Origin: a virus
DNA: 31,893 nucleotides
Virus record (IMG/VR): IMGVR_UViG_3300002835_000694
Coordinates: 1 to 31,893 of that record
Direction: 5' to 3' (one strand)
Shown here: in pieces, positions 1 through 5,064 of the stretch
Layout of the letters: every line of letters starts with the position of its first letter
Position numbering within the stretch: position 1 is the first letter of the stretch
Program-made: the position numbers and the translations under genes
The notes under the pieces: generated by a model
Told to the model about the DNA's origin: nothing
The model's database searches: none
What the model saw: only the letters and a program-made list of their open reading frames with translations

Positions 1-44
1 CCCCTCTTGTCGTTCGCTATCAGTCACCGCGCAGAAATGCTAAT

Positions 45-136
45 AGTTTTCCACAGGTTCTAAGTATAAATCTGCGAGAACACAGTGAGTAACAGTGTTT
101 TGATGCACAGTAGGTATCAGCAACCTGTGGAAAACT
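45..136. repeat. 15-bp perfect inverted repeat containing DnaA-like boxes
   Basis: The 15 bases at 45-59 (AGTTTTCCACAGGTT) are repeated exactly as the reverse complement at 122-136. A 62-bp spacer separates the arms. Each arm includes one TTTTCCACA box, so the repeat extends 2 bp to one side of the box and 4 bp to the other. The spacing suits paired protein binding sites better than a simple RNA hairpin. Confidence 0.8.
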
Positions 137-166
137 TTATACTTTATGTGGAAAACTTGTGGAAAA
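47..166. other. Cluster of four cyanobacterial-type DnaA-box sequences
   Basis: TTTTCCACA occurs on the + strand at 47-55, and its complement TGTGGAAAA occurs at 126-134, 147-155 and 158-166. The last two are only 11 bp apart. From memory, TTTTCCACA is the DnaA-box form described for Synechococcus, differing from the E. coli box TTATCCACA at one base. All four copies are exact and non-coding. Use by host DnaA, as an origin or as a titration site, is inference. Confidence 0.5.
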
Positions 167-178
167 CAGAATACTCAG

Positions 179-206
179 AGGACAGTGAAATTCTGTCCTT
201 TTTTTA
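179..206 (+). terminator. Rho-independent terminator, + strand
   Basis: A perfect 7-bp stem (AGGACAG at 179-185, CTGTCCT at 193-199) with a 7-nt loop is followed by six T residues at 200-205. The reverse strand lacks a T run after the stem, so it should work rightward. It would end transcripts from a gene upstream of the window or from the region at 1-178. Confidence 0.8.
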
Positions 207-281
207 TACTTTGAGGTGGGCGTGTTAAATGTGCAAAATGACAGTTAATTTGTGGTGAATTCTTTATACTTAAGCGGGCGT
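203..281. repeat. Imperfect direct repeat TTTATACTT-(T/A)(G)AG-GGGCGT
   Basis: TTTATACTTTGAGGTGGGCGT at 203-223 recurs as TTTATACTTAAGCGGGCGT at 263-281, two bases shorter. The TTTATACTT part alone also occurs at 136-144 and, inverted (AAGTATAAA), at 62-70 and 968-976. All of these copies are in non-coding DNA. Function is unknown; a binding site or promoter element is possible. Confidence 0.5.
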
Positions 282-376
282 AGCGGATATATAAAAGCAT
301 AAGTCCCTAACCTACAAAGGTCCCCCAACGCTATCAATATAATGAATCCATTTTTATAAAAAAATTCCCGTGGCAC

Positions 377-407
377 AAAAAAAATCCCCCAGGGTCACTG
401 AGGGATT
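377..407 (-). terminator. Rho-independent terminator for the minus-strand gene
   Basis: Read on the minus strand, AATCCCTCAG pairs with CTGGGGGATT (10 bp, one G-T pair) around a 5-nt loop, followed by a run of T residues. On the + strand the arms are 383-392 and 398-407 and the A run is 377-384. It lies about 20 bp after the stop codon of the minus-strand gene. A T run at 413-418 could also give weak + strand activity. Confidence 0.85.
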
Positions 408-427
408 TAAAGTTTTTTATTGTTTAA

Positions 428-895
428 TCAGCGACCCTGAGAAGCATACCACTTTTCAAATGCCTCACGATCCTTATTACCTCTAGGTGGCATTGGGCGT
501 GATTCTCCACGAACTTTCTCATACTTTTTATTTTCTTCTCTCTCATACTTCTCAGGATTCTCACGAGCTCTTTGTGCTTCCAGAATAGAATCTCTCCACT
601 CCTCGCTCATGTTTGCCATAATTGCGGTAGCAGATTCGGCAGAGTCTGCGTATCCATCTGAGAGAAGATGTGAGAGAATAATATCAAAAGATTCTTTCAT
701 TTCTTTTTCAGTAACCTTCTCACCCTTCTCTTCCTTACCTTTGGGGTGCTTACCTTCTTTGTGCTTTCCGCCTTCATCTTTACCAGATTCTTTGCCTTCC
801 TTTTCTGTTTCTTTTTCTGCTTCTGCTGCTTCATAAACTGATGCGTAAGCCTCGCTCAGAGCATCAATTTCCTTTGAACTAAATGAGGGAAACAT
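428..895 (-). CDS. Conserved phage protein with charged linker and MSEEWRDSIL-type motif
   Basis: A 155-aa protein and the only minus-strand gene in the window. After a short N-terminal helix (about 1-28) comes a hydrophilic Lys/Glu/Gly linker (about 29-65) that is surely disordered. A helical segment follows at about 66-107, with the words HLLSDGYADS and NMSEEWRDSIL, then a basic tail with a Pro-rich turn. From memory the DGYAD...MSEEWRxSI pattern recurs at the ends of proteins in marine T4-like phages, but I know no function for it. The ATG at 895 is about 29 bp downstream of a minus-strand late-type promoter, and a strong terminator follows the stop. It is therefore a self-contained, probably late unit. 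Function is unknown. Confidence 0.8.
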   Translation of the reverse strand: MFPSFSSKEIDALSEAYASVYEAAEAEKETEKEGKESGKDEGGKHKEGKHPKGKEEKGEKVTEKEMKESFDIILSHLLSDGYADSAESATAIMANMSEEWRDSILEAQRARENPEKYEREENKKYEKVRGESRPMPPRGNKDREAFEKWYASQGR

Positions 896-923
896 GAGTC
901 TTTATAAAATAACTTGATACCGC

Positions 924-931
924 TATTTATC
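924..931 (-). promoter_or_regulatory. T4-type late promoter (GATAAATA), minus strand
   Basis: TATTTATC on the + strand reads GATAAATA on the minus strand, fitting the NATAAATA late-promoter form of T4-like phages. It lies 29 bp before the ATG at 895, a spacing that leaves a normal leader. It would express the minus-strand gene late in infection. Confidence 0.55.
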
Positions 932-934
932 ATC

Positions 935-963
935 TTGACACTCGCTAAATACTGTTGTATGAT
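935..963 (+). promoter_or_regulatory. Near-consensus sigma70 promoter
   Basis: TTGACA at 935-940 and TATGAT at 958-963 are separated by exactly 17 bp, almost the bacterial consensus. A start near 970 leaves a leader of about 17 nt before the ATG at 987. This suggests early transcription by unmodified host RNA polymerase. TATAAATC at 971-978 could add a late-type start, but it would leave only a few leader bases. Confidence 0.7.
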
Positions 964-986
964 ACTGAAGTATAAATCATTTTCTT

Positions 987-1760
987 ATGACAAAGGGATT
1001 TAAGGTTATTGCTAAAAACACTGAGTCTGAAGATCAGTGGAATTATGATCTAATTAAAAAGAGAGCACAAGGTAAGACAATTATTTTCTGTCTTCCAGGT
1101 CGTGGGTGTTCTTATCTGTTTCTAAAGAATTTTGTTCAACTCTGTTTTGATCTGGTTCAAAACGGAATGTCGATTCAGATCTCTCAAGATTATTCTTCCA
1201 TGGTGAACTTTGCACGTTGTAAAGTATTGGGTGCAAATGTTCTTCGTGGTCCTAAGCAGATTCCTTGGGATGGCAAACTGGAGTATGATTATCAACTTTG
1301 GATTGATAATGACATTGTGTTCAATACCGAAAAGTTTTGGCAACTGATTGGATTGGCACAAGGAGATGCTGAGGATGGTTCTGAAGACAAAGGCATTGTG
1401 GCAGGGTGGTATGCAACTGAAGACGGATACACCACATCCGTTGCTCATTGGTTGGAAGAAAATGACTTCCGTAAGAATGGTGGTGTGATGAATCACGAAA
1501 CCGTCGAATCAATCAGCAAGAGGCGCAAACCTTTCACAGTCGATTACACAGGATTTGGTTGGGTACTGATTAAGAAAGGTGTATTTGAAAAACTCACCTA
1601 TCCTTGGTTTGCACCTCAGATGCAAGTCTTTGAGTCTGGTGAAGTTCAAGACATGTGTGGTGAAGACGTTTCGTTCTGTCTTGATGCAAAGAAAGAAGGT
1701 TTTGAAATCTGGTGTGATCCTCGGATTCGCGTTGGTCACGAAAAAACTCGTATTATTTGA
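987..1760 (+). CDS. GT-A type glycosyltransferase-like protein
   Basis: 257 aa. The features fit a GT-A fold nucleotide-sugar transferase: a beta strand followed by FCLPGRGCS near residues 34-42, a DxD-like metal site in LWIDNDIVF (D107, N108, D109), and a C-terminal GEDVSFC...VGH pattern (E226, D227, H251). The last pattern matches the acid pair and metal-binding His of this fold. No membrane segment or signal peptide is visible, so it should be cytoplasmic. Sugar and acceptor cannot be told; phage DNA, a virion protein or a host glycan are all possible. No clear Shine-Dalgarno precedes the ATG, while a strong sigma70 promoter does, suggesting early expression unlike the late genes downstream. 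Confidence 0.7.
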   Translation: MTKGFKVIAKNTESEDQWNYDLIKKRAQGKTIIFCLPGRGCSYLFLKNFVQLCFDLVQNGMSIQISQDYSSMVNFARCKVLGANVLRGPKQIPWDGKLEYDYQLWIDNDIVFNTEKFWQLIGLAQGDAEDGSEDKGIVAGWYATEDGYTTSVAHWLEENDFRKNGGVMNHETVESISKRRKPFTVDYTGFGWVLIKKGVFEKLTYPWFAPQMQVFESGEVQDMCGEDVSFCLDAKKEGFEIWCDPRIRVGHEKTRII

Positions 1761-1774
1761 TGGAGATTTAATTT

Positions 1775-1918
1775 ATGGCACCTCGTAAAAGTTCTGGTGG
1801 TTCACTGTTTGTTCCTGGTTCTCCCAAGAAAACTCGTCAAGGTCGTTCACAATACACCAAGTTGAGCGCCTCTTCTCGTAATGGAGCAAAGAAAAGGTAT
1901 AGGGGTCAAGGACGGTAG
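1775..1918 (+). CDS. Small very basic conserved phage protein (47 aa)
   Basis: The ATG at 1775 follows a GGAGA ribosome binding site at 1762-1766, and the frame stops at TAG 1916-1918. About a quarter of the 47 residues are Lys or Arg, with many Ser and Gly. Words include SLFVPGSPKKTRQGRSQYT and GAKKRYRGQGR. I recall similar small basic proteins (SLFxPGxPKKTRQGRS) in other marine T4-like phages, without known function. Composition suggests nucleic-acid binding or a disordered virion or scaffold component. It lies 14 bp after the glycosyltransferase gene and 3 bp before the 205-aa gene, so the three are probably co-transcribed. Confidence 0.75.
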   Translation: MAPRKSSGGSLFVPGSPKKTRQGRSQYTKLSASSRNGAKKRYRGQGR

Positions 1919-1921
1919 TTT

Positions 1922-2539
1922 ATGTATCTACTAGATGGAGACGAAGAATGGAATCACATTCATTCAAAAGACATCTGGGCATACAATAAATTGCATTTAA
2001 GTCGGGTTTTGGGTTATACATGTGGTCCAGTTGGTACTACAGTTCCCAAACCCGACTTTTATGTTGTGCGTCCTTGTATGAATTTATTAGGAATGGGGCG
2101 TTTTTCTCGGGTAGAGTGGATTCAACACTATACTGATCAGTTTCATCCTGCAGAATTTTGGTGTGAAAGGTTCACGGGAGAGCATTTAAGCGTTGATTTT
2201 CAACACAAAGAGTGCAAATTGGTAATTTTGGGTGAACGAAACAAAGAAGATGAGTTATATAAATGGAAAAAATGGACTAAGATAGATAAAGTAGTACAAT
2301 TTCCATTAATTTTAGACGACTTAGTTGGTGATTATGAGTGGATTAACTGCGAATTTATCGACAATCAGTTAATTGAAGTACATTTCAGAAGAAATCCTGA
2401 CTTTCGGTATGGTAATTCCATTGCAATTCCAGTTTGGAATGATCAAAAAATAGAAGGACCCATCAATTATCACTTTGTATCAGATCCAGACTTTCATCGA
2501 AAAGGATTTTTTATTGATCAAGGGATAGAAACCCCTTAA
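1922..2539 (+). CDS. Conserved hypothetical protein with RPCMNLLGMG motif
   Basis: 205 aa, starting 3 bp after the preceding stop, with AGGACGG (1908-1914) as a usable ribosome binding site. The N-terminal half carries DIWAYNKLHLSRVLGYTCGP and PDFYVVRPCMNLLGMGR, followed by a Trp- and His-rich middle. The arrangement of a strand, RPxxN and GMG vaguely recalls substrate-handling enzymes of the ATP-grasp kind. I see no complete nucleotide site, so I do not assign a function. It is not like T4 gp53, the baseplate gene one might expect near gp25 and gp6. No membrane segment is seen. Confidence 0.7.
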   Translation: MYLLDGDEEWNHIHSKDIWAYNKLHLSRVLGYTCGPVGTTVPKPDFYVVRPCMNLLGMGRFSRVEWIQHYTDQFHPAEFWCERFTGEHLSVDFQHKECKLVILGERNKEDELYKWKKWTKIDKVVQFPLILDDLVGDYEWINCEFIDNQLIEVHFRRNPDFRYGNSIAIPVWNDQKIEGPINYHFVSDPDFHRKGFFIDQGIETP

Positions 2540-2543
2540 AAAG

Positions 2544-2566
2544 TTCTAATTCAACCGAATTAGGAG
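2544..2566 (+). promoter_or_regulatory. RNA hairpin sequestering the ribosome binding site
   Basis: TTCTAATTC (2544-2552) pairs with GAATTAGGA (2557-2565) around an AACC loop, nine pairs with one G-T. The 3' arm contains most of the TAGGAG ribosome binding site (2561-2566) for the ATG at 2572. No T run follows, so it is not a terminator. Translational control is inferred. Confidence 0.55.
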
Positions 2567-2571
2567 TAAAA

Positions 2572-2736
2572 ATGGACGATCAACTATTTTTAAGTGAAAT
2601 TTTACACGACAATCTCACCGAAAAAAAGCATAATCTCAAAAAACAAACTGAATTACATGAAAAAATTCGTAATGATGAAGATTATGATGATTGGGACTAT
2701 GGTACTGAACCAGTTTATGGAAAAATAACCATGTAA
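2572..2736 (+). CDS. Small acidic hypothetical protein (54 aa)
   Basis: The frame runs from ATG 2572 to TAA 2734-2736, preceded by TAGGAG at 2561-2566. The protein begins MDDQLFLSEILHD, has a Lys/Glu/His-rich helical middle (about 15-33) and an acidic DEDYDDWDYG segment at about 36-45. I do not recognise it. The good ribosome binding site and its position between two genes on the same strand support it. The hairpin over its ribosome binding site suggests regulated translation. A late promoter starts 6 bp after its stop, so gp25 can be expressed separately. Confidence 0.6.
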   Translation: MDDQLFLSEILHDNLTEKKHNLKKQTELHEKIRNDEDYDDWDYGTEPVYGKITM

Positions 2737-2741
2737 ATACT

Positions 2742-2750
2742 CTATAAATA
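2742..2750 (+). promoter_or_regulatory. T4-type late promoter (CTATAAATA)
   Basis: CTATAAATA contains the exact T4 late promoter core TATAAATA (2743-2750). It lies 27 bp upstream of the gp25 start and is the best late-promoter match in the window. It should drive the gp25-gp6-gp7 baseplate block using the phage late sigma factor gp55 and sliding-clamp coactivation, as known for T4. Confidence 0.75.
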
Positions 2751-2776
2751 CAAAAAGATTAACGGAGAAACTGTAA

Positions 2777-3175
2777 TTGTCGGAGTATAGCAGAGCTTTT
2801 AGGGACATAAATCTTTCATTTAAGTCTCATCCTGTCACTAAGGACATTTTGCCTCTTACAAATGAAGAGGCAATTAAAAGATCTGTTAAAAACATTGTGT
2901 TTACAAAATTTGGTGAGAAATTTTTTGATCAAAATTTTGGATCTACCATTAATCAAGCACTTTTTGAACTTGATACTACATTAAATGCAATTGGTTTGCA
3001 GAGTGAACTTGAAACTGCGATCATAAATTATGAACCAAGAGTTGAAAATGTAAGTGTTTTGGTAACTGTGAGTGGAGAAGATCACGAACTTTCTGCCACA
3101 ATCACTTACGACATCATTGGTTTACCGCTTCCGACAATTACAGTCGAATTTATTCTTTTACCAACTAGAGTATAA
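2777..3175 (+). CDS. 25: Baseplate wedge subunit gp25
   Basis: 132 aa, the same length as T4 gp25 as I remember it. It shows the gp25/GPW fold pattern: SFKSHPVTKDI near the N terminus, NIVFTKFGEKFFDQNFGS around residues 39-57, and the conserved NYEPRVENV at about 83-92. gp25 joins gp6 and gp53 in the inner wedge that triggers sheath contraction, and is the lysozyme-like gpW/gp25 family member found in all contractile injection systems. The start is TTG at 2777. An in-frame TAA lies directly upstream and GGAGA at 2764-2768 is well placed, so no ATG start is available. Its stop overlaps the gp6 ATG (TAATG), indicating translational coupling. Confidence 0.92.
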   Translation: MSEYSRAFRDINLSFKSHPVTKDILPLTNEEAIKRSVKNIVFTKFGEKFFDQNFGSTINQALFELDTTLNAIGLQSELETAIINYEPRVENVSVLVTVSGEDHELSATITYDIIGLPLPTITVEFILLPTRV

Positions 3176-5064
3176 TGGCTTTCGGTCAATTTACAAGTCT
3201 GGATTTCGATCAGATAAAGACCTCCATTAAGGATTATCTGAGATCCAATAGCAATTTTACAGATTTTGACTTCGAAGGGTCAAACCTGTCTATTCTAGTT
3301 GATGCTTTGGCATACAATACTTATCTGACTGCTTATAATACAAACTTAGCAATTAATGAATCCTTTCTTGATTCTGCAACATTAAGAGAAAACGTCGTTT
3401 CTCTTGTTAGAAACATTGGTTATGTTCCTAGATCAAGAAGATCTGCAATTGCAAAAATTACTTTTAGAATTAATAATCTATCATCTTTAACTGCTACACT
3501 AAAAGCAGGAATTATTGCAAACGGAACAGAAAGCAATACAGTTTATGTTTTTTCAATTCCAGAAGACATTACAGTAAATGTGGTCAATGGAGTTGCAATC
3601 TTCAGCAACATAGAAATTTATGAAGGAACATTTATAACATCAAACTTCACTGTAAATAAGGCATCGTTTGAGCAGAGATTCATTTTACCAAACCCCTTTG
3701 TCGATACCTCTACATTAAGAGTTACTATTAAACCAACAATTGATTCTTCAATTACAGCAGAGTACATTCAAGTCGATAACATTCTAGGATTAAATTCAGC
3801 ATCGAATGTTTATCTTGTTCAAGAAGTTGCAGATGAAAAGTATGAACTTCTTTTTGGCGATGGCATTATTGGTTCTAAGTTAAATGATAAAAATTACATC
3901 GAAGCATCTTACATTATAAGTTCTGGTAGACTCGGAAACGGAGTTAATAATTTTAACTTCGTAGGAATTGTAAAAGATGAATTTAATGTAGACATTGATC
4001 CTGGTAAGATTTCAAGAATCACCACAGCAGATCGCTCAAGAAATGGTGATGAAATTGAATCTATTACTTCAATTAAACACTATGCACCAAGAATCTATTC
4101 TTCACAGTATAGAGCAGTAACTGCTTCTGATTATGAAGCAATCATTGGATACATTTATCCAAATGTAGATTCTGTGACTGCTTATGGTGGAGAAGAATTA
4201 ACTCCACCAAAATATGGGAAGGTTTATATTTCAGTAAAACCAAGAAATGGTGATACAATTTCAGATTCTACGAAAAAGAGTTTGTTAGAAAAACTTAAAA
4301 ATTATTCAATTGCTGGTATCATTCCAGAGTTTATTGATGCGAAATATTTACATGTAGAAATTGATTCTAGTGTTTATTATGACACTCGGAAAAATAATAG
4401 ACCTAATGATCTTAAATCTTTAATTACAAGTTCATTAACTCAATATGCAAATTCATTGGATTTGAATAAATTTGGCGGAAGATTTAAGTATAGTAAAGTA
4501 ATTTCTCTGATTGATAATGTTAACTATGCAATTACCTCAAACATTACAAAGGTTATAATGCGTAGAGATTTAAATGCAGTGATTGGAACGAATGCTCAGT
4601 ATGAATTATGTTTTGGCAATAAGTTTCACGTATCACAAAATGAGTATAACATTATTTCCACTTATTTTAGAATCAATGGAGTAACTGGAAACATTTATTT
4701 GGCAGACAGGAAAATTAATTCTACACAGGGGGAAATTTTCTTTTTCAGATACCAATCTGGTGGAACTCCACAAGTCGTTAAGAATAATGCAGGCACTGTT
4801 AATTATGCCACTGGTGAAATTCTTATAGATACTGTAAACATAACTGAAACAGAAGTTTCTGATGAAATTATTCAAATTCAGGCAATTCCAGAATCAAACG
4901 ATGTGATTGGTTTGAGAGATCTTTACATTAAATTTGATGTTGGTTCATCTAAGATTGGTTTAATTAAGGATGTCATTTCTTCAGGAGAAAATACCTCTGG
5001 ATCTAGATTGACAACTCAAACTAGTTATGTTCAACAAAAATATGTAAGAACGGCAACCAATTAA
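3175..5064 (+). CDS. 6: Baseplate wedge subunit gp6 (baseplate J-like)
   Basis: 629 aa, close to T4 gp6 (about 660). The N terminus contains DFDFEGSNLSILVDALAYNT, the usual opening of this family. The baseplate-J core appears at about residues 310-355 with TASDYEAIIGYIYPNVDSV followed by PPKYGKVYISVKP. gp6 dimers form the continuous ring that holds the wedges together around the tail tube. The ATG overlaps the gp25 stop codon. The C-terminal part (about 490-629) looks like an added beta-rich segment, with a YATGEI word, before the gp7 gene 11 bp downstream. Confidence 0.9.
   Translation: MAFGQFTSLDFDQIKTSIKDYLRSNSNFTDFDFEGSNLSILVDALAYNTYLTAYNTNLAINESFLDSATLRENVVSLVRNIGYVPRSRRSAIAKITFRINNLSSLTATLKAGIIANGTESNTVYVFSIPEDITVNVVNGVAIFSNIEIYEGTFITSNFTVNKASFEQRFILPNPFVDTSTLRVTIKPTIDSSITAEYIQVDNILGLNSASNVYLVQEVADEKYELLFGDGIIGSKLNDKNYIEASYIISSGRLGNGVNNFNFVGIVKDEFNVDIDPGKISRITTADRSRNGDEIESITSIKHYAPRIYSSQYRAVTASDYEAIIGYIYPNVDSVTAYGGEELTPPKYGKVYISVKPRNGDTISDSTKKSLLEKLKNYSIAGIIPEFIDAKYLHVEIDSSVYYDTRKNNRPNDLKSLITSSLTQYANSLDLNKFGGRFKYSKVISLIDNVNYAITSNITKVIMRRDLNAVIGTNAQYELCFGNKFHVSQNEYNIISTYFRINGVTGNIYLADRKINSTQGEIFFFRYQSGGTPQVVKNNAGTVNYATGEILIDTVNITETEVSDEIIQIQAIPESNDVIGLRDLYIKFDVGSSKIGLIKDVISSGENTSGSRLTTQTSYVQQKYVRTATN

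Follow-up and report, generated by a model that had tools for sequence, protein, structure and literature searches.

Clustered DnaA boxes of the cyanobacterial type upstream of the baseplate genes of T4-like cyanophages: a candidate origin element that may use host DnaA

Introduction

T4-like cyanophages are abundant in water, and in the literature searched the start of their replication is not known experimentally. To our knowledge, initiation in T4 itself does not use DnaA; the publications searched, which deal with T4 initiation, the genomics of cyanomyoviruses and T4-like cyanophages, are silent on DnaA in this respect, and DnaA-dependent initiation has not previously been described in them for T4-like lytic phages. 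Four exact copies of the word TTTTCCACA, closely spaced in a non-coding region of a phage of this group, raise the question of which protein these sites bind and whether they could belong to an origin of replication. According to the earlier note on this DNA, a phage origin recruiting host DnaA, or a decoy titrating it, would be new for the phage group, and this assessment stands within a search that included little subscription literature, in which no report of DnaA boxes or of a DnaA-box origin in a cyanophage was found.

The box array and its genomic context

The window, that is, the whole stretch of DNA analysed, is a linear IMG/VR record of 31.9 kb. Judged from its gene content, it is a fragment of the genome of a T4-like cyanophage (Kyanoviridae): it encodes a T4-type structural module with cyanophage homologues of gp25, gp6, the tail sheath stabiliser and the terminase small subunit, and its glycosyltransferase protein is 71-83% identical to those of Kyanoviridae isolates. 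From left to right, an intergenic region (1-427) is followed by a minus-strand ORF of 155 aa (428-895) that has no assigned function and weak matches to PHROGs of unknown function, a glycosyltransferase-like gene homologous to T4-GC 102 (987-1760, plus strand), which serves as the synteny anchor downstream of the boxes, the gp25 baseplate wedge gene with which the structural module starts (2777-3175, plus strand; PHROG baseplate wedge, E = 3e-44) and the gp6 baseplate wedge gene (3175-5064, plus strand; PHROG baseplate wedge, E = 6e-192). Beyond gp6 lie a very long ORF in the place of gp7 and then baseplate, neck, tail sheath stabiliser and terminase small-subunit genes. The GC content is 0.39-0.41 in the first 2000 nucleotides of the window versus about 0.29-0.36 in the remainder, and an Rfam scan of positions 1-3000 yielded nothing above the gathering score.

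All four exact boxes that the earlier note had placed within 120 bp of non-coding DNA were located, and the 31.9 kb contain no further copy; the region 1-427 is not covered by any ORF of at least 50 aa. Box 1 occupies positions 47-55 on the plus strand, and boxes 2, 3 and 4 occupy positions 126-134, 147-155 and 158-166 on the minus strand. Boxes 1 and 2 form the cores of the two arms, AGTTTTCCACAGGTT (45-59, plus strand) and AACCTGTGGAAAACT (122-136, minus strand), of an inverted repeat of 15 bp which is perfect, as had been claimed, the arms being exact reverse complements; likewise, the 11-bp distance reported between two boxes is that between the starts of boxes 3 and 4 (147 and 158). The distance from box 2 to box 3 (126 to 147), which the earlier note did not mention, is 21 bp, or two helical turns. 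Directly after the array, a terminator-like hairpin (AGGACAG...CTGTCCT, then a T-run; 179-205, plus strand) can be read from the sequence. The local GC content falls to 0.28-0.30 at positions 126-275, with comparable dips nearby.

The array far exceeds chance expectation: with 20,000 dinucleotide shuffles applied to the first 430 bp, four boxes never arose (the maximum was two), and 1,000 shuffles of the complete window likewise never placed more than two boxes in a stretch of 121 bp. For the relaxed box TTWTNCACA, the window shows no enrichment (8 occurrences against 7.4 expected), so that the signal lies in the exact cyanobacterial form and in its clustering.

Recurrence of the box clusters at one locus

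When 2.9 million viral contigs were scanned for the inverted repeat of the window, with a gap of 50-75 bp, 38 contigs were recovered, in which the total arm-to-arm length is quantised at 86-88 or 97-98 bp, values about one helical turn apart. The boxes in the matching contigs are massed at one place, often as 5-12 copies at steps of 21-22 bp; the arrays of some freshwater phages reach 9-12 boxes, and most marine genomes carry 2-4 clustered boxes. The freshwater-type order is box cluster, glycosyltransferase gene, gp25 and gp6; where the glycosyltransferase gene is in reach, nearly all such loci have the cluster 0.7-1.9 kb upstream of it. The prospect of clusters at the syntenic site of relatives, raised in the earlier note, is thus borne out in many T4-like cyanophages, where they recur upstream of the glycosyltransferase-gp25-gp6 (or equivalent baseplate) genes. 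In the isolate DSL-LC03 (L045, 1393-3907), the glycosyltransferase gene has two minus-strand genes without known function on its upstream side, and the box cluster is situated about 6 kb upstream.

Two relatives are especially informative, L009, which is near-identical to the window, and L033, with a glycosyltransferase that is 89% identical. Boxes 1 and 2 are invariant in both, and in L033 every box and every spacing is kept while the flanks have diverged, a fifth box is present at +22 bp beyond box 4, and the stem of the hairpin at 179-205 is preserved through a compensating G-C to A-T change. Both relatives carry further boxes 0.6-1.2 kb further upstream of the array; the window does not because its contig ends at base 1.

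The second form of the element, typical of the marine clade, consists of two convergent boxes, TTTTCCACA-N14-TGTGGAAAA, with A/T-rich DNA after them. When all IMG/VR viral contigs were scanned for such pairs, at least 120 stretches matched, compared with 8 for the reversed word used as the control. Among the matches listed, 73 of the 114 pair loci examined carry genes of this locus and the pair is upstream in all 73 (gp25, 65/65; gp6, 62/62; glycosyltransferase, 34/34; wedge gene, 25/25), and none of the control loci contains these genes. Syn9 and S-CAM22, for which complete genomes are available, each possess exactly one convergent pair, located at the locus (52565-52597 in Syn9) and overlapping small annotated hypothetical ORFs in both phages.

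Convergent pairs peak at 23-24 bp, a peak that is partly selected by the pair search and is also seen in the motif-anchored sample described below, and same-strand spacings peak at 11-12 and 20-22 bp. The 10.5-bp phase has R = 0.57 (n = 101 spacings), with related sequences counted and kinship uncorrected.

Enrichment in samples drawn without reference to boxes

An intergenic motif, CCCTAACCTACAAAGG (305-320, plus strand), preceded by ATATATAAAA at 287-296, is a putative late-promoter-like element which is conserved across Kyanoviridae, box-less isolates included. The surrounding stretch of the window (285-330) corresponds to a strongly conserved Kyanoviridae intergenic element (L053-L171) near the start of the baseplate module, roughly TATTAAAAA-N-ACTACCCTAACCTACAAAGGTTCCC, which resembles a late promoter whose transcript would have a conserved leader and which matches no Rfam family.

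With CCCTAACCTACAAAGG as the anchor, 84 loci were sampled without reference to boxes. The density of exact boxes is 1.28/kb within -1200 to +200 of the motif compared with 0.08/kb elsewhere, and none of 300 permuted words exceeds 0.14/kb near the motif. Upstream of the motif, no other 9-mer is repeated nearly as often as TTTTCCACA (54 of 84 loci): its shifts by one base are repeated in 28, 20 and 19 loci, and the next unrelated word in 11, a ranking which implies that the core under selection coincides exactly, at both edges, with the DnaA box. No exact box is present in 26 of the 84 loci. The second anchor consisted of the 80 nearest relatives of the glycosyltransferase, 46 of which have enough upstream sequence; the exact box is enriched 11-fold in this sample, with at least two boxes in only 10 of the 46 loci. 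Since 34 of these 46 loci, the nearest relatives of the window, contain no exact box, the element is common but patchy among T4-like cyanophages. Two conditions that the earlier note named as refuting, a lack of conservation in relatives and a box frequency at the level of chance, do not apply.

The same patchiness is apparent among isolates: the exact box is absent altogether from Bellamy and S-B05, and P-SSM2, S-T4, ACG-2014f, S-CAM9 and P-TIM40 have none at the locus. These absences are incompatible with an obligatory origin shared by the whole family. Degenerate convergent pairs with up to two mismatches were not found at the locus of the box-less isolates, and a search of box-less loci for an alternative repeated 9-mer returned only A/T-rich words and small-family repeats. 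In a DNA similarity search of positions 1-1000 of the window against named phages, P-TIM40 alone matched; the stretch concerned (236-331) shares 74% identity with intergenic P-TIM40 DNA that is unannotated and carries no boxes.

Host DnaA as the likely ligand

The earlier note took TTTTCCACA to be the DnaA-box form of Synechococcus, and the literature confirms this identity: it is the cyanobacterial DnaA box of S. elongatus, Anabaena and Cyanothece, where it adjoins dnaN (PMC4674748). In the likely host family, represented by 30 dnaN loci of about 4 kb each from the family of a Cyanobium genome (genomes of 1.0-3.9 Mb), 20 of the 30 loci contain one or two exact boxes, and all 25 copies sit upstream of dnaN at a distance of about 140-350 bp, the remainder of these loci being free of them. 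The C-terminal DNA-binding domain of DnaA (domain IV) was not found in 19 phage records and was detected in the control genomes. Because the box is that of the host and the sampled phages lack this domain, host DnaA is the likely and most parsimonious ligand of the array, and we are strongly inclined to the view, based on sequence comparison, that the site evolved for binding by it. Replication of S. elongatus depends on DnaA and certain other cyanobacteria do not need it (PMC7198777).

A candidate origin element and alternative functions

What the bound protein would do is a separate question. Our best reading, held with about even confidence, is that the cluster would be a cis-acting site for host DnaA and most likely a phage replication origin or part of one; we give the same even chance to replication initiation being the main role of the site. 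A broader proposal is put forward more tentatively, namely that many T4-like cyanophages may possess a dedicated origin at the conserved locus upstream of the baseplate genes and start replication there by commandeering host DnaA, which would be bound by phased arrays of boxes or by a convergent pair. Under this scheme, host DnaA, present in the cell before infection, would bind the boxes, the identity and conservation of which are observed. The bound DnaA molecules, brought onto one face of the helix by the 11/21-bp phasing or turned towards each other in the convergent pair, would then bend and open the adjacent AT-rich DNA, and the phage could load its T4-type replisome on the opened strand for the first round or rounds, perhaps assisted by a transcript from the nearby conserved promoter-like element. 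Recombination-dependent replication would subsequently take over.

The fixed position of the site, its phasing and its location in cis near a promoter-like element favour an origin and are in keeping with the known origins of T4 (PMC3016281). Several DnaA boxes in a defined arrangement are present, and in box-bearing genomes they occupy a single conserved locus per replicon, although the element is patchy across the family. One contig of 284 kb, IMGVR_UViG_3300027541_000009, has a second cluster of four DnaA boxes (239066-239129), about 210 kb from the first. The GC and AT skews that the earlier note invoked as a check are monotonic and uninformative, and GC skew gave no sign of an origin: its cumulative curve is monotonic in four complete relatives, so that there is no minimum at this or any other site. 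DnaA normally recruits the host DnaB and not gp41. Furthermore, T4-type phages encode their own helicase and loader, and a T4-type replisome needs no DnaA, which argues against an origin. The DnaA-trio motif is highly degenerate (PMC8287927).

Should the origin reading be correct, replication of these phages would be linked to the host cell cycle, and phages with DnaA boxes would be set apart from their box-less relatives. In the box-bearing laboratory phages Syn9, S-CAM22, P-SSM7 and S-SM2, the locus provides a concrete place and a concrete host factor for the study of initiation.

Among the alternatives, transcriptional control fares best, although we regard it as unlikely: array-bound host DnaA would activate or repress phage promoters at the start of the baseplate module, by which late transcription would be tied to the DnaA level or to the replication state of the host. 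Such a role would fit the position of the boxes upstream of the structural module and near the promoter-like motif (ATATAAAA plus CCCTAACCTACAAAGG), as well as the single boxes that several marine loci have at positions of about +52/+73 counted from the motif. However, the distance between boxes and motif is loose for a promoter operator (0.25-1.3 kb, or several kb), the terminator-like hairpin stands between array and motif in the window, and arrays of up to 12 boxes exceed usual operators.

A titration decoy, in which replicating phage DNA would soak up host DnaA and block host initiation in the manner of E. coli datA, appears distinctly less probable. The boxes are exact host boxes, present in the high numbers noted above (up to 9-12 per array) in some freshwater phages, and their copy number rises during infection, as is generally known, but most marine genomes have just 2-4 in their clusters, and a decoy would require neither a fixed genomic locus nor the 23/24-bp pair geometry nor helical phasing; the conserved position, the phasing and the fixed pair geometry thus favour a function in cis over a decoy. 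Moreover, host DNA is generally degraded by lytic phages of this kind, so that blocking host initiation would be less useful.

We assign a similarly low probability to the boxes being sites of a phage-encoded protein whose recognition sequence coincides with the host DnaA box. In freshwater phages, the dominant context of the boxes, AG-TTTTCCACA-GG-TT, whose AG-box-GG part also occurs in the inverted repeat of the window, is shared and longer than in the host oriC boxes, as might be expected of such a protein, but this flanking context differs between lineages, the sharp edges of the 9-bp core in the marine sample are those of the cyanobacterial DnaA box, and the 19 phage records lack the DnaA C-terminal domain. 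Finally, the enrichment in these intergenic regions extends to A/T homopolymer-like words, but a chance or compositional artefact of A/T-rich intergenic DNA is refuted by the shuffles, the permuted-word controls, the reversed-word scan (8 against at least 120) and the conservation, and we attach next to no weight to it.

Comparison with known systems

The closest counterpart of the phage array is the cyanobacterial oriC beside dnaN, in S. elongatus PCC 7942, Anabaena 7120 and Cyanothece 51142, in which the identical box is clustered in non-coding DNA (PMC4674748). The phage arrays differ in having the 11/21-bp phasing or the 23/24-bp convergent pair, in lying upstream of virion genes and in lacking an adjoining dnaN or dnaA, whereas the sampled host loci contain one or two exact boxes at other spacings.

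The statement of the earlier note that T4 does not rely on DnaA boxes agrees with the literature, in which T4 starts from R-loops without DnaA (PMC3016281), and no such box was found in oriE. T4 oriE resembles the phage locus in being an origin region of the T4 group with evenly spaced repeats upstream of gene 6 (PMC3016281); it differs in that its repeats lie inside gene 5, have a 24-bp spacing and another sequence, and include no DnaA box that could be found. Homology to oriE was considered and rejected given that the repeats (gene 5, repEA/repEB) differ in sequence, spacing and neighbours.

Host DnaA boxes or DnaA involvement are familiar from other foreign replicons, including P1 oriR, iteron plasmids and phage lambda. 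These replicons use their own initiator (O, RepA) with iterons and the host DnaB. The phage examined here, by contrast, is lytic and T4-like and brings its own replisome, and no initiator is recognised next to the array. The E. coli datA locus, a DnaA titration site, is likewise a cluster of DnaA boxes outside oriC, but it is chromosomal. Within the same phage group, a single theta origin has been predicted for cyanophage Syn9, as reported in PMC2984593, and its genome carries the one convergent box pair described above.

Stretches that resemble the freshwater arrays also occur in gut microviruses, namely Microvirus mar31 (MZ089777.1, about 1953-2077) and Capybara microvirus Cap1_SP_128; in the former, the array-like stretch is repeated and lies in the non-coding gap between the capsid and pilot-protein genes.
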